From Corallococcus llansteffanensis (GTDB lineage: Bacteria; Myxococcota; Myxococcia; Myxococcales; Myxococcaceae): 38,210 nucleotides of DNA. Each line of letters opens with the position of its first letter. Positions within the stretch are counted from its first letter, which is position 1. The translations under genes and the position numbers were made by a program. The DNA is taken from the NCBI RefSeq assembly GCF_003612055.1, contig NZ_RAWB01000020.1, positions 1 to 38,210 on the forward strand. Reading direction: 5' to 3'. Shown piece by piece: positions 11,275 through 16,283 of the stretch. The notes under the pieces are model-generated. The model had not been told where the DNA came from. It did no database searches and was given only the letters and a program-made list of their open reading frames with translations.

Positions 11275-12809
11275 CGCCAGTCCCCGAAGGGCCACTCGAA
11301 GCCCGGCGTGCGCAGCACCTCCGGCGCCCGGGCCCCCCGCCAGCGCAGGGCCTCTCCGGGCCTCAGCAGGAGCGCCTTGGGTCCCTCGCCCCGCGCCTTG
11401 CGCACCTCCGCCAGCCGCTCCGGATACGGATCCGCGTCGGGGTTCTCGTCGAGGGAGCTCGCGCCCGTGACGGGCTCGCCCGGGTAGCCGACGTAGCGCG
11501 GCCCCATGCCCTCGCGCCAGTACCAGGGGGCACCGCCGTCCGCGCACGGCACGACGTAGCGCGCACCCAGCAACGCACCATAGCGCAGGGCCTCCTCCGG
11601 ACCCGCCATCAGTCGCTGCGGCGTGGTGAGCGCGTCGCGCGGCACGTTGACGAGGAAGGCATCCAGCGTGGTGAAGCCGAAGAAGATGGGCGGCAGCCGG
11701 AAGCCGCGCACGCCGCAGAAGAGCACGTCCACCGGGCCCTGCTCCTTGTGCACCCGGCGGCACACCGCGTCCATGTCCCCGCGCACGTCGTGGCCCGCGT
11801 CCGCGAAGAAGGCGGCGGAGAAGTCCGGCGAGCGCACGAGCCAGGTGTTGCCCTCGTTGAAGAGGCCCGGGTGCGGCCCCTCGCCGTCGGTGGGCTGCTC
11901 GCCGTGGAAGGGCAGCGCGTGCACCGTCACGTCCCCCACCTGCCGCGTCTCACCCCAGCGCAGGGGCTCCACGCGCGTGAAACCCAGCTGCTGGAGCCGC
12001 AGCGCGCAGTCCGTGGAGAAGAGGCTCTCGCGCGCCACCGCCGGCACGAAGATGCGCGTGTCGCGGGGCAGGGGCAGCAGCGAGCCCAGGTGGAAGTGGT
12101 CCCCGTGTGAGTGGGTGATGACCACCGCGTCCACACGCCCCAGGTCACCCGCCTGCAGCGGCGCGTAGCCGGGCAGGTCCGCGTCTCCGGCGGGGCGGAA
12201 ATATGGATCCACCAGCACTCGCCCTTCCCTGCCCGCCACCAGCACCGTGTTGTGTCCCACGAAGAGGGCCCCAGGCCCGGGCACCTCCACCGGCCTCTCG
12301 TGGCGCACGAGCCAGCCGGCCTGCGACAGGTCGCCCAACAGCTCGCCCACGACGGGCACGGTGGCCAGCGCGCGCAGCTCCTCGCGCGTCGCGCCCCGGG
12401 CGAGCGCGGCGAACAGGTCCGCCACCACCGGCCAGTCCTTCGCGCGCACCGGCACGTCCAGGCCCAGCGACTCCTGGCGCAGGTGCAGCACGCGGGGGCG
12501 GTGGCGCAGCGGATCCGGGAAGAGGACGTCCTCGCGCAGCACGCGCCGTCCCATGCGCCGCTTCGTGCCCACGCACAGCGCGGCGTACCGGGGCGTGTCC
12601 TCCAGCCAGCGCACCAGCGCGTCCGCCTCACGCAGCGCGCCCTCGCGACCCAGCGCGGCGATGTGGCGCTTGAGCGGAAGCTGGGCCCAGCGCACCGGAC
12701 GCGCGGTGGGCCCCTGGATGCTGCACCCCAGGTCCTCGTGGTGGTCGGCCTCCGTGCGGGCGGAGGCGAGGACGGCCAGGCTGACGCCGCGGTGCAGGGT
12801 GAGTCGCAT
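11208..12809 (-). CDS. MBL-fold metallo-hydrolase, long form
   Basis: This 533-residue protein starts at ATG 12809 (MRLTLHRGVSLAV); the frame extends 12 codons further but without better signals. The metallo-beta-lactamase metal site is HSHGDH at 233-238, preceded by the strand RVLVDPYF and followed by RIFVPA. Further ligands are expected in LPFHGEQ and FADAGHD. The N-terminal 180 residues are not part of the MBL core. They are rich in basic and helical segments and may bind substrate. The order and the late VPCADGG resemble the lactonase/NAPE-hydrolase branch more than beta-lactamases, but the substrate is unknown. It is divergent from the OPT transporter (165-bp spacer) and overlaps the HELGH gene at its 3' end. 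Confidence 0.82.
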   Translation of the reverse strand: MRLTLHRGVSLAVLASARTEADHHEDLGCSIQGPTARPVRWAQLPLKRHIAALGREGALREADALVRWLEDTPRYAALCVGTKRRMGRRVLREDVLFPDPLRHRPRVLHLRQESLGLDVPVRAKDWPVVADLFAALARGATREELRALATVPVVGELLGDLSQAGWLVRHERPVEVPGPGALFVGHNTVLVAGREGRVLVDPYFRPAGDADLPGYAPLQAGDLGRVDAVVITHSHGDHFHLGSLLPLPRDTRIFVPAVARESLFSTDCALRLQQLGFTRVEPLRWGETRQVGDVTVHALPFHGEQPTDGEGPHPGLFNEGNTWLVRSPDFSAAFFADAGHDVRGDMDAVCRRVHKEQGPVDVLFCGVRGFRLPPIFFGFTTLDAFLVNVPRDALTTPQRLMAGPEEALRYGALLGARYVVPCADGGAPWYWREGMGPRYVGYPGEPVTGASSLDENPDADPYPERLAEVRKARGEGPKALLLRPGEALRWRGARAPEVLRTPGFEWPFGDWRQAAPVPPPPRNTSRTRQRAPR

Positions 12810-12974
12810 GCACCGCGACGTCGCACGCCTCGCCGCCCTTCGCAAGCAGCTCCCGAGTCTCCGCGCCTTTGCGCCACGCGGCGGAGTCGGCGACGGGCCG
12901 CCGGGTCGCCCGCGTCCGGTGACGCGCTCGAGGTTGTGACTCGCCGGGGAACGCCGCTACCCTCCCCCGCACCC

Positions 12975-14822
12975 ATGGCCCAAACCGCCCAGCCGCTCCC
13001 GCCGGAGCCCTCCGTCCCCCTGTCGCCGGCGTCCGAAGCCGTCACGCCGCGCTTCCGCTTCCTGCCCGCGGTGAACACGTGGAAGTACCACCTGCTGCTC
13101 GCCACGGTGGCCATCCTCATCCTGGGCCCGCTGGGCGGCGTGGCCGCGTCGTACATGAACTTCAGCCTGGGCTTCTTCGTCGCGAGCCAGGTGCTCTCCG
13201 GCATCCTCGGCAGCGTCGTCACCTACGGCTACGGCGCGGAGGGCAAGCACGGCGCCAACTACATGCAGACGATGGCCGCGTCGGTGGCCTCGCTGTGCGC
13301 CATGTCCGTGCTCATTCAAGCCATGGTGTGGCTGGGCATGCCCCAGCCGCCCGCGTGGCAGCTCATGCTCTTCGTCGGGTGCGTGGGCATGTTCGGCGTG
13401 GGCGTGGGCATGCTCTACACGCCGCTGCTCGTGGACCGGCTCCAGTTGGACTACCCGTCCGGCTACGCGGTGGCCAACATCCTGCGCGCGCTCACCGACA
13501 AGCGTCTGCTCAAGGCCTCCATCGCGAAGCTGGGCGGCGGCACCGGCCTGGGCATCCTCGCGGCGTTGCTCACGGAGAAGGTGGCCAGGGTGGCCGCGCT
13601 CAGCGTGAGCAGCTCCACCGTGGGCGCGGGCATGGTCGTGGGCAGCCGCATCACCGTGCCCGCGATGTGCATGGGCATCCTGGGCTTCGCGCTCACGCCG
13701 TACCTGCGCGACATCGGCTGGCTGGGGCCCAATGATCCGTACCGGAAGATCGGCTTCCTCATCTCGCTCGCGATGATCTGCGGCGCGGCGCTGGTGGACC
13801 TGGCGCTGCTCGCGGTGCAGGCGGTGGCGCGCATCCGCGGCCAGGCGCAGGCGCCGGTGGACGACGAGCCCTCCTGGAAGAAGGTCAACGTGCCCCGGCT
13901 CATCGCCTGGGTGGTGGGCTGGGGCGCGGCCGTCGTCGTCGTCGCCACGCAGGTGCTGCACCAGCCGGCGGGATTCATCATCTTCGGGCTCGCGCTGTCC
14001 GTGCTGTTCGTGCTGATCAACGGCATCGCCTACGGCATCAGCGACAACAACCCCATCTCCAGCGCGTTCGTGATGTCCGTGCTGCTGATGTCGCTCCTGG
14101 GCCTGAAGGATCCGCTGGTGGGGCTGATGGCGTCCTCCATCCTGCTCATCTCCACGTCGGTGGGCTGCGACATGCAGCAGGACCGCTCCACCGGCTGGCG
14201 GCTGGGCACCAACCGCGTGTTGCAGTTCCGCTACCAGGTGCTGGGCATCTTCATGGGCGCGGTGCTGTGCGTGGCGCTGGCGCGCGTCTTCATGGGTGCC
14301 TACCCGGTGCTGTCCGTCAACCAGTTGGACCATCCCGACACGAAGGTGGGCCAGTGGGGCTCCGCGATGACGTACAAGTTCGTGGGCGCCATCCGCGACC
14401 TGGGCGCGCTGTCCGAGCACAAGGTGAAGGCGCTGCTCGTGGGCCTGGGCATCGGCTTCACGCTGGAGGTCCTGCGGAAGATCATCCGCCGGCACCCGGC
14501 GTACCTGCGCTTCGTGCAGGGCTCGCGCACCGGCTTCGCGGTGGGTTACGCGATGGACTCGGTGGTGCTGGCGAGCCCCTACGCGTCCGCGTTCGGTGGC
14601 TTCATCGCGCTGCCGGCGACGATCTGGTTCGGCGCGGGCGGCGTTCTCACGTCGCTGTTCAACACCGCCTCCAAGCGCTTCGCGCGCCCGCCCGCTCCGG
14701 GTGAGACGGTCCTCCCGGAGGACATGAGCACCATGTCCCTGGTGGGCGGCGGCCTCATCGCGGGCGAGTCGCTCTTCTACCTGTTCGTGGGCCTGTACGG
14801 CCTGCTGGCGCTGCTGGGCTGA
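12975..14822 (+). CDS. OPT-family oligopeptide/metal-chelate transporter
   Basis: This 615-residue polytopic membrane protein begins MAQTAQPLPPEPSVP. After a Pro-rich cytosolic tail come about 14-16 hydrophobic helices. Family features include GGVAASYMNFSLGFFVASQ in the first helices, KLGGGTGLGILAALL, VGAGMVVGSRI, and the C-terminal GFAVGYAMDSVVLASPYAS and FGGFIALPATIWFGAGG. OPT proteins import short peptides or metal-peptide chelates by proton symport; bacterial members are poorly characterised. The ATG at 12975 is preceded by a C-rich stretch with no visible Shine-Dalgarno, and a GTG at 12936 is possible. The gene lies 62 bp upstream of the Thr-leader ORF, so a link between peptide uptake and threonine supply is conceivable but unproven. 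Confidence 0.9.
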   Translation: MAQTAQPLPPEPSVPLSPASEAVTPRFRFLPAVNTWKYHLLLATVAILILGPLGGVAASYMNFSLGFFVASQVLSGILGSVVTYGYGAEGKHGANYMQTMAASVASLCAMSVLIQAMVWLGMPQPPAWQLMLFVGCVGMFGVGVGMLYTPLLVDRLQLDYPSGYAVANILRALTDKRLLKASIAKLGGGTGLGILAALLTEKVARVAALSVSSSTVGAGMVVGSRITVPAMCMGILGFALTPYLRDIGWLGPNDPYRKIGFLISLAMICGAALVDLALLAVQAVARIRGQAQAPVDDEPSWKKVNVPRLIAWVVGWGAAVVVVATQVLHQPAGFIIFGLALSVLFVLINGIAYGISDNNPISSAFVMSVLLMSLLGLKDPLVGLMASSILLISTSVGCDMQQDRSTGWRLGTNRVLQFRYQVLGIFMGAVLCVALARVFMGAYPVLSVNQLDHPDTKVGQWGSAMTYKFVGAIRDLGALSEHKVKALLVGLGIGFTLEVLRKIIRRHPAYLRFVQGSRTGFAVGYAMDSVVLASPYASAFGGFIALPATIWFGAGGVLTSLFNTASKRFARPPAPGETVLPEDMSTMSLVGGGLIAGESLFYLFVGLYGLLALLG

Positions 14823-14848: not shown

Positions 14849-14877
14849 TTGACTTTCCGTGCGACCGGGAGCACTTC
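14849..14877 (+). promoter_or_regulatory. Possible sigma-70 promoter for the Thr leader
   Basis: TTGACT at 14849-14854 is a good -35. With a 17-base spacer the -10 would be CACTTC (14872-14877), which is poor. Transcription would begin near the GTG of the leader at 14885, which would then be nearly leaderless. Read-through from the OPT gene is an alternative source of transcript. Confidence 0.3.
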
Positions 14878-14884
14878 TTGTCCC

Positions 14885-14968
14885 GTGAACCTCGTCAACG
14901 CCACCACCGCGACCACGACCACCACCGCTTCGGCGGGAGTGGGAGCGGTGCGCGTGTCGGTGGTCTGA
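14885..14968 (+). CDS. Thr-rich leader peptide (putative attenuator)
   Basis: A 27-residue ORF starts at GTG (VNLVNA) and has seven Thr in eight residues at positions 7-14 (TTATTTTT), then a Val/Gly/Ala-rich end and TGA at 14966. It lies 112 bp upstream of a threonyl-tRNA synthetase gene, exactly where a regulatory leader peptide would be expected. The sequence straight after the Thr codons can pair with the left arm of a downstream GC-rich hairpin, as in classic attenuation. A GGGAG lies 13 bases before the GTG, rather far for an RBS. Such leaders sense charged tRNA: a ribosome stalled on Thr codons would favour the antiterminator. The peptide itself probably has no function. Confidence 0.6.
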   Translation: MNLVNATTATTTTTASAGVGAVRVSVV

Positions 14969-15017
14969 CGAGCGCACGGTTTCCCGCCCCGCCGAGTTCC
15001 GGCCGGGGCGACCGTGC
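14932..15017 (+). promoter_or_regulatory. Attenuator-like alternative hairpins upstream of short ThrRS gene
   Basis: The terminator-like stem has arms GCACGGT (14974-14980) and ACCGTGC (15011-15017), with an inner stem CGCCCCG (14985-14991) and CGGGGCG (15004-15010) and a small CCG/CGG top. An alternative pairing uses GGCGGGA (14932-14938), directly after the Thr run, with TCCCGCC (14982-14988), and GTGCGC (14948-14953) with GCGCAC (14972-14977). Both break the left side of the first stem. The two folds are therefore mutually exclusive. No U-tract follows, so termination may be Rho-assisted or the effect may be translational. Confidence 0.55.
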
Positions 15018-15080
15018 AAGCATTCACGCCCCGTGTCCGGCCCCGGCTTCTTCACCCGACCGACACACGGAGTCACGACG

Positions 15081-16283
15081 ATGCTCGACGAACACGACCA
15101 CCGCGCGCTGGGCCAGCGCCTCGACCTCTTCCACCTGCAGGAGGAGGCCGCGGGCATGGTGTTCTGGCACCCGCGCGGACTGATGCTGTACCGCCTCCTG
15201 GAGGAGCACGTCCGCCAGCGCATGCGCGACGAGGGCTACCAGGAAGTCCGCTCACCGCAGCTGTTCTCCCAGCAGCTCTGGGAGCAGAGCGGCCACTGGG
15301 AGAACTTCCGCGAGAACATGTTCTGCCTGCCCGAGGGCGACCGGCACCTCGCCCTCAAGCCGGTGAGCTGCCCGGGCCACATCCACCTCGTGCAGCGCAT
15401 GGCGCCCAGCCACCACGACCTGCCCCTGCGCCTGGGGGAGTTCGGGCTCGTGCACCGCAGCGAGCCCAGCGGCGCGATGCACGGGCTGTTCCGCCTGCGC
15501 CAGTTCACGCAGGACGACGGCCACATCTTCTGCGCGGAGGAGCAGGTGGAAGCGGAGGTGGTGCACTTCGTGAAGTCGCTGCGGGCGTTCTACGCGGGCT
15601 TCGGCTTCGACCACGTGCAGGTGGCCTTCTCCAGCCGTCCGGCGCAGCGCGCCGGCAGCGACGCGGTGTGGGACCAGGCGGAGGCGTGGCTGAAGTCTGC
15701 GGCGAGGCAGGCCGGGCTCCAGTTCGCGGAGCAGCCGGGCCAGGGCGCCTTCTACGGGCCCAAGCTGGAGTTCGTGCTCAACGACCGGCTGGGGCGCGCG
15801 TGGCAGTGCGGCACGATCCAACTGGACCTGGTGCTGCCGGAGCGCTTCGACCTGAGGTACGTCGACGCGTCCGGCGCACGCCAGCGCCCGGTGATGCTTC
15901 ACCGCGCGCTGTTCGGCAGCCTGGAGCGGTTCATCGGCATCCTGCTGGAGCACCACGGGGGCGCGCTGCCCGCGTGGCTCGCGCCCGAACAGGTGGTCGT
16001 GGCCTCCGTGGGCGCGGGGGCCGCCGCGTACGCGGAACGGCTGGTGGCCCGGTTGAGACAGGTGGGCTGCCGCGCCCGAGCGGACGTGCGGGACGAATCG
16101 CTGTCGCGCAAGGTCGCCAGTGCGCACCAGGACAGCGTGCCCTTCCTGGCGGTGGTGGGTGGCCGCGAGGTGGAGGGAAACAACGTCCGCCTGCGCCTGC
16201 GCGATGGGGCCCAGCGCGACCTGGCCTGGGATGAGGCCGTGGCGTGGCTGTCCGCCGCGTGCCAGCCGGCCGTGGCGGACTGA
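15081..16283 (+). CDS. thrS: Short threonyl-tRNA synthetase (catalytic core and anticodon domain only)
   Basis: This 400-residue class II synthetase charges tRNA-Thr with threonine. It has motif 1 (EVRSPQ), motif 2 (VHRSEPSGAMHGLFRLR, then QFTQDDGHIFC) and motif 3 (LHRALFGSLERFIGI). The zinc ligands that select threonine are present as C97, H148 and H274, with the same spacing (51 and 126) as Cys334/His385/His511 of the E. coli enzyme. Residues from about 300 form the anticodon-binding domain. Full-length bacterial ThrRS is about 640 residues; the TGS and N2 editing domains are missing, so this enzyme cannot clear Ser-tRNA-Thr itself. It is probably a second, inducible copy, like B. subtilis ThrZ in role but not in architecture. 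The ATG has GGAG 8 bases upstream. Confidence 0.9.
   Translation: MLDEHDHRALGQRLDLFHLQEEAAGMVFWHPRGLMLYRLLEEHVRQRMRDEGYQEVRSPQLFSQQLWEQSGHWENFRENMFCLPEGDRHLALKPVSCPGHIHLVQRMAPSHHDLPLRLGEFGLVHRSEPSGAMHGLFRLRQFTQDDGHIFCAEEQVEAEVVHFVKSLRAFYAGFGFDHVQVAFSSRPAQRAGSDAVWDQAEAWLKSAARQAGLQFAEQPGQGAFYGPKLEFVLNDRLGRAWQCGTIQLDLVLPERFDLRYVDASGARQRPVMLHRALFGSLERFIGILLEHHGGALPAWLAPEQVVVASVGAGAAAYAERLVARLRQVGCRARADVRDESLSRKVASAHQDSVPFLAVVGGREVEGNNVRLRLRDGAQRDLAWDEAVAWLSAACQPAVAD

Follow-up and report, generated by a model that had tools for sequence, protein, structure and literature searches.

A putative threonine-codon attenuator in front of a second, short threonyl-tRNA synthetase gene of Corallococcus llansteffanensis and related myxobacteria

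How is a second threonyl-tRNA synthetase (ThrRS) gene controlled that is preceded by a very short open reading frame (ORF) rich in Thr codons? This question is raised by a locus of Corallococcus llansteffanensis, which was studied here within a window of 38,210 nucleotides, i.e., the whole stretch of DNA analysed (GCF_003612055.1, contig NZ_RAWB01000020.1, positions 1-38,210, forward strand). In our view, the leader is probably a ribosome-mediated attenuator, which senses the charging of tRNA-Thr and controls the second, short ThrRS (thrS2) via a relay from a leaderless ORF to the Shine-Dalgarno sequence (SD) of the gene. Conservation, mutually exclusive pairings and a switch in the predicted fold form the computed basis of this mechanism; that the transcript is leaderless, that the ribosome stalls, that the readout is translational and that thrS2 is induced in vivo is what we infer.

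The leader ORF and the short synthetase

The locus comprises the following features:

14849..14854, + strand: -35-like box TTGACT; TTGAC is found in 70/70 leaders
14872..14877, + strand: -10-like box CACTTC (consensus CAYYTT), 17 nt past the -35 box; position 2 is A in 67/70 leaders, position 5 is T in 63/70
14885..14968, + strand: leader ORF of 27 codons with GTG start and TGA stop (MNLVNATTATTTTTASAGVGAVRVSVV), probably leaderless
14903..14926, + strand: regulatory run of seven Thr in eight codons, the core of segment 1; pairs with segment 2 in the minimum free energy (MFE) fold
15081..16283, + strand: thrS2, a 400-aa ThrRS with catalytic and anticodon-binding domains only; TIGR00418 match of 451 bits (cut-off 384 bits) that begins only at model position 170; in Pfam no domains other than tRNA-synt_2b and HGTP_anticodon

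The 27-codon GTG ORF with seven Thr codons in eight, located 112 nt before a ThrRS gene according to the initial annotation, is borne out by direct reading of 14885-14968: the run consists of ACC ACC GCG ACC ACG ACC ACC ACC (14903-14926), and 112 nt separate the leader stop from the thrS2 ATG (15081). The region marked at that time does not begin with a start codon: its left edge, 14849, coincides with the invariant -35-like TTGAC box. A large gene encoding an OPT-family oligopeptide transporter (12111-14822) lies immediately ahead of the leader promoter.

Across the 70 leaders, which are 21-28 codons long, the ORF starts with GTG (58) or ATG (12), usually preceded by a C and by no SD. From TTGAC, the start codon is reached after exactly 36 nt in 59 of them and after 35-41 nt in all, and transcription is therefore expected to start at the leader start codon. 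A generic promoter scan of the window did not score the -10-like box, which is weak by the sigma-70 consensus. Judged from promoter spacing alone, the leader ORF is probably leaderless, with a transcript beginning at the GTG. For a short attenuator ORF, an RNA that begins right at the start codon, as predicted for the thrS2 leader, is described in Sinorhizobium meliloti, where the trpL attenuator RNA starts with the ATG of its own ORF; unlike the thrS2 leader, trpL responds to Trp, and its output is transcription attenuation (PMC7298713).

The thrS2 product aligns to residues 249-622 of the full-length solved ThrRS structure 6vu9, and thus lacks the TGS and editing domains; the zinc ligands expected in a ThrRS, one Cys and two His (KPVSCPGH, GAMHG, MLHRA), are present by inspection. 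The second ThrRS match in the same genome is full-length (727-codon frame) and 45% identical. The short enzymes form one clade (branch support 100/99), with that of L019 as deepest member in the tree as drawn.

Conservation and spread of the leader

A short ThrRS was found in 67 genomes of the order (counted from the results table), and in all 67 a Thr-rich leader ORF precedes it; in every ortholog examined, its stop codon is located 100-123 nt ahead of the ThrRS start. Leaders also precede the short enzymes of L006, L010 and L019, which are more distant, here with up to 138 nt between stop codon and ThrRS gene, and the leader extends to Polyangiaceae-type relatives and one more distant relative. 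A covariance model, built from 30 leaders and run against 195 Myxococcota genomes, matched 70 of them, i.e., the 67 thrS2 genomes, two further thrS2 loci and one relic; in the two further loci, G161 and G162, which belong to another family, the leader match is followed by thrS2 at 56% identity. At the full-length ThrRS genes checked among the sampled loci, the leader is absent. In a broad genome scan of 80 ThrRS loci, those with a short upstream frame all bear the leader except L061, whose frame is interrupted by the contig end.

The relic (L181, G123 contig 315, about 963-1110) has kept the Thr run, the 3:4 hairpin and the thrS2 start region, and the thrS2 frame is lost after a few codons; with thrS2 broken off, it was rejected as a functional copy by inspection. 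Likewise, a second covariance-model match in G114 (L182, contig 1, about 1271-1366, - strand of that stretch) is a partial leader copy that spans the last part of the Thr run and segment 2; it was rejected by inspection, being far from any ThrRS gene and having unrelated flanks.

Conservation of the Thr codons among orthologous leaders, which the initial annotation had set as a check, holds throughout: the best eight-codon stretch contains five to eight Thr codons in 70/70 leaders, and seven in 46 of them. Considered by itself, such a run is not evidence, since a reversed control codon pattern is equally common in the genome (21 matches vs 10) and the seven-of-eight pattern occurs at four separate places in its 10.5 Mb; the evidence is the recurrence at the same offset before every ortholog. 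Regarding codon choice, the leaders use ACC 332, ACG 135, ACT 77 and ACA 1 times, whereas four large ORFs of the window contain 57 ACG, 34 ACC, 2 ACT and 1 ACA, and the leaders are therefore enriched in ACC and ACT. Both codons are decoded by the tRNA with the GGU anticodon. This preference, visible at 14903-14926 and in all related leaders, looks as if one tRNA-Thr isoacceptor were sensed.

A scan of the leader against Rfam 15 gave no family at gathering score and just unrelated weak matches at E up to 10; the leader represents a clean RNA family. Its identity as a T-box or as an enterobacterial Thr operon leader was rejected, as neither covariance model was matched. In the literature searched, mostly openly accessible papers without the earlier large-scale attenuator predictions, we found neither a ThrRS gene nor any myxobacterial gene described as controlled by leader-peptide attenuation. 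Altogether, the thrS2 leader is best read as a new family of threonine-sensing, ribosome-controlled attenuators, real and conserved.

Mutually exclusive pairings and the predicted switch

Beyond the Thr run, five further segments can be delimited in the window:

14932..14953, + strand: segment 2, the switch strand (GGCGGG and GTGCGC); pairs with segment 3 in the consensus fold
14972..14993, + strand: segment 3 (GCGCACGG...GCCCCGCC), with segment 2 or 4 as partner
14999..15017, + strand: segment 4 (CCGGCCGGGGC...ACCGTGC); 3' strand of the 3:4 hairpin (14974-15017), with segment 5 as alternative partner
15028..15040, + strand: segment 5 (GCCCCGTGTCCGG), the anti-SD strand, with U-A/A-U compensatory changes in 5:6
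15065..15072, + strand: segment 6, the thrS2 SD and its flank (ACACGGAG), with GGAG 8 nt before the ATG; paired with segment 5 in the OFF folds

The leader RNA of the window is more stable than all 200 dinucleotide shuffles (z = -4.3). Its ribosome-free MFE fold consists of 1:2 and 3:4, as in 68/70 leaders, and in the window also of 5:6, while the unprompted consensus fold of the alignment is 2:3 plus 4:5. In a swap test, which compares cognate pairing energies with cross-clade mixtures, the cognate strands paired better for 2:3 (p=0.0001), 3:4 (p=0.0008) and 5:6 (p=0.0016), with p=0.08 for 4:5; six control pairings ranged from 0.43 to 0.99. These results support a six-segment, ribosome-controlled switch with 1:2 + 3:4 + 5:6 as OFF state and 2:3 + 4:5 as ON state.

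Regarding compensatory changes in both stems, the second check that had been set, the OFF pairs (3:4, 5:6) covary (0.140 vs 0.087 in shuffled alignments, reached in 0/500; at most 0.080 when slid), while 2:3 varies little and is backed by the swap test. The ON pairs are formed in 96.9% of cases, and their low variation is expected where strands are constrained in two structures. Best kept is the 3:4 hairpin, whose top helix has 98.8% of its cells paired. The initial annotation had given the sequences GGCGGGA (14932-14938) and TCCCGCC (14982-14988) and the hairpin at 14974-15017 correctly. As to the proposed pairing of the first two, the upstream pairing as such stands, and the exact register is confined to the own genus; across 40 aligned leaders, the conserved partner of GGCGGG is CCCGCC at 14988-14993.

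The hairpin over the thrS2 SD and the pairing 4:5 that undoes it are additions to that earlier picture. Within 5:6, 87.8% of cells are paired, with compensatory changes, and L179 provides an independent case, in which the strand opposite the SD differs in sequence (GCTTGCTCC with GGAGCAAGC) and segments 4 and 5 form an 11-nt pairing (both by eye). For the genus of the window, shuffled sequences form SD hairpins of at least equal strength. For 4:5, pair counts exceed those of segment-5 shuffles by a modest margin (11.2 vs 8.3; mean z -1.06), and the pairing is backed by conservation of its register rather than by strong covariation. The competing strands are GC-rich and promiscuous in pairing.

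To model the switch, all RNA up to the ribosome edge was withheld from pairing, followed by equilibrium folding. For an edge at Thr codon 1, 2 or 4, the window RNA reached occupancies of 0.99-1.0 for 2:3 and 0.82-0.91 for 4:5, vs 1.0 for 3:4 with the ribosome at the stop codon or absent. At the last Thr codon, part of segment 2 is covered and the switch is mostly lost, so that, according to this model, it is important to stall early among the Thr codons. Averaged over all leaders, the occupancy of 2:3 rises from 0.00 at the stop to 0.30-0.42 when stalled; just 23-30 of the 70 flip to 2:3 at equilibrium, so kinetic folding must be invoked for the others. Once segment 3 has found its partner, 4:5 forms in the nascent RNA of 42/42 leaders before the SD is made, and opening the SD costs a mean of 4.4 kcal/mol with 2:3 formed vs 8.2 with 3:4 formed, the cost being lower in 39/42 leaders. 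At equilibrium, the SD is unpaired with a mean of 0.13 when stalled vs 0.07 at the stop and in many species largely paired in both states; this effect is too small on average to be relied on as proof of the relay.

In the mechanism we favour, the RNA would start at the leader GTG and be translated as a leaderless ORF. With charged tRNA-Thr in plentiful supply, the ribosome would reach the stop codon (or be absent), 3:4 would pair, and segment 5 would be left to cover the thrS2 SD (5:6), keeping thrS2 off. With charged tRNA-Thr in short supply, a ribosome stalled in the Thr run would mask segment 1, enabling 2:3 and leaving segment 4 free for segment 5; this 4:5 pairing would relieve the SD, and thrS2 could be made. 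The case for the Thr-codon switch is strong, the translational relay onto the thrS2 SD is likely but unproven, and the translational readout and the 4:5 step are the least certain parts of the model.

Level of output, alternatives and known systems

The main competing explanation is a classical transcription attenuator, which would use the same leader and the same choice between 2:3 and 3:4, with 3:4 serving as terminator, either intrinsically in spite of the missing U-tract or assisted by a factor such as Rho; the hairpin over the SD would then be incidental. Consistent with this, 3:4 is the best kept part of the leader, and it is followed by a U-rich tail in L019, the most distant relative (CTTTTGATTT), and by a T-rich tail in L148 (GTTTCGCTTTTC). 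However, the window and the other Myxococcaceae leaders sampled are devoid of a T-rich tail past this hairpin, where 8 nt mostly contain 0-2 and never more than 4 T, and a terminator scan of the window gave none at 15017. A 3:4 hairpin lacking a U-tract makes a shortened transcript ending near 15017, as implied by the initial annotation, doubtful. Moreover, the compensatory changes and swap-test support of 5:6 would be superfluous for a terminator, and we regard this explanation as rather unlikely. The earlier idea that stalling at Thr codons turns the synthetase on consequently keeps its sensing part, given Thr codons in all orthologs, better cognate 2:3 and 3:4 pairings and a fold that flips upon masking, whereas the implied termination output is not supported.

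Leader genes have generally been proposed to allow reinitiation (PMC4833913), and the leader peptide could accordingly mainly boost thrS2 translation by coupling or reinitiation, with the hairpins as secondary elements; the stop-to-start distance of 100-123 nt across a very stable hairpin is unfavourable for this, and the conserved Thr codons and alternative pairings would remain unexplained, which renders it very improbable. Slightly less probable still is an autoregulation in the style of E. coli thrS, where ThrRS would bind the structured 5' leader and the Thr codons would be incidental: ThrRS genes of E. coli are known to be autoregulated (PMC2965389), but this would account neither for strands that exclude each other in pairing nor for the fact that every ortholog keeps a Thr run in frame between a start and a stop codon. 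A chance ACC/ACG repeat in a GC-rich intergenic region, as similar codon runs at three other places of the genome might suggest, is hardly credible in view of the universal linkage to thrS2 across deep divergence (56% protein identity), the near-fixed promoter spacing and the covariation, conservation already contradicting it.

In the classical ribosome-mediated attenuators of enterobacteria, e.g., the trp, his, thr and pheST leaders, the position of the ribosome picks 1:2/3:4 or 2:3. The thrS2 leader shares with them a short ORF with many codons for the amino acid to be sensed and the mutually exclusive pairings 1:2/3:4 vs 2:3, but differs by the absence of a U-tract terminator in the window, the extra segments 5 and 6 reaching the SD, a probably leaderless ORF and a paralogous synthetase as target. 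In erm/cat translational attenuators, a stalled leader ribosome frees a sequestered SD via alternating hairpins. A comparable SD release is proposed for thrS2, yet with hungry Thr codons instead of a drug as signal and a relay starting from a probably leaderless ORF. Bacillus subtilis has a second ThrRS gene, thrZ, as a reserve that is induced by threonine limitation and uses T-boxes. As a reserve gene with predicted induction by threonine limitation, thrS2 resembles thrZ, but its leader would sense via Thr codons.

Attenuation of synthetase genes, placed mainly in gamma-proteobacteria by the initial annotation, has a precedent outside this group in the trpS and leuS attenuators of Streptomyces (PMC1262725). 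As in the thrS2 case, leader peptides there attenuate synthetase genes of GC-rich bacteria, but those systems were predicted with terminators and differ in amino acid, lineage and sequence (PMC1262725). Actinobacterial ileS is controlled by a translational T-box, whose SD-sequestering hairpin responds to tRNA charging (PMC1262725); thrS2 would likewise be a synthetase gene under such a hairpin, but lacks an Rfam T-box match in its leader and would sense by translated codons and not by direct tRNA binding.

If true, the proposed mechanism would represent a ribosome-based sensor of threonine charging in myxobacteria. Development of these bacteria is triggered by amino-acid starvation. The mechanism would also place a ThrRS without editing domain under starvation control, raising the question whether starved cells tolerate more Ser-for-Thr mistranslation. 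A further-reaching proposal is that of a distinct class of amino-acid sensors, in which a leaderless Thr-codon ORF and a six-segment relay gate translation of an editing-less reserve ThrRS and which derives from a transcription-terminating, L019-like ancestor; for this, we see the chances as evenly balanced. With few outgroups behind it, the simplest reading of the sequences would be an ancestral transcription attenuator, whose output shifted to the SD in Myxococcaceae. The relatives, ranging from a U-tract terminator to SD sequestration, would then be a natural case of an attenuator changing its level of output, and L148 possibly combines both outputs, termination and SD.
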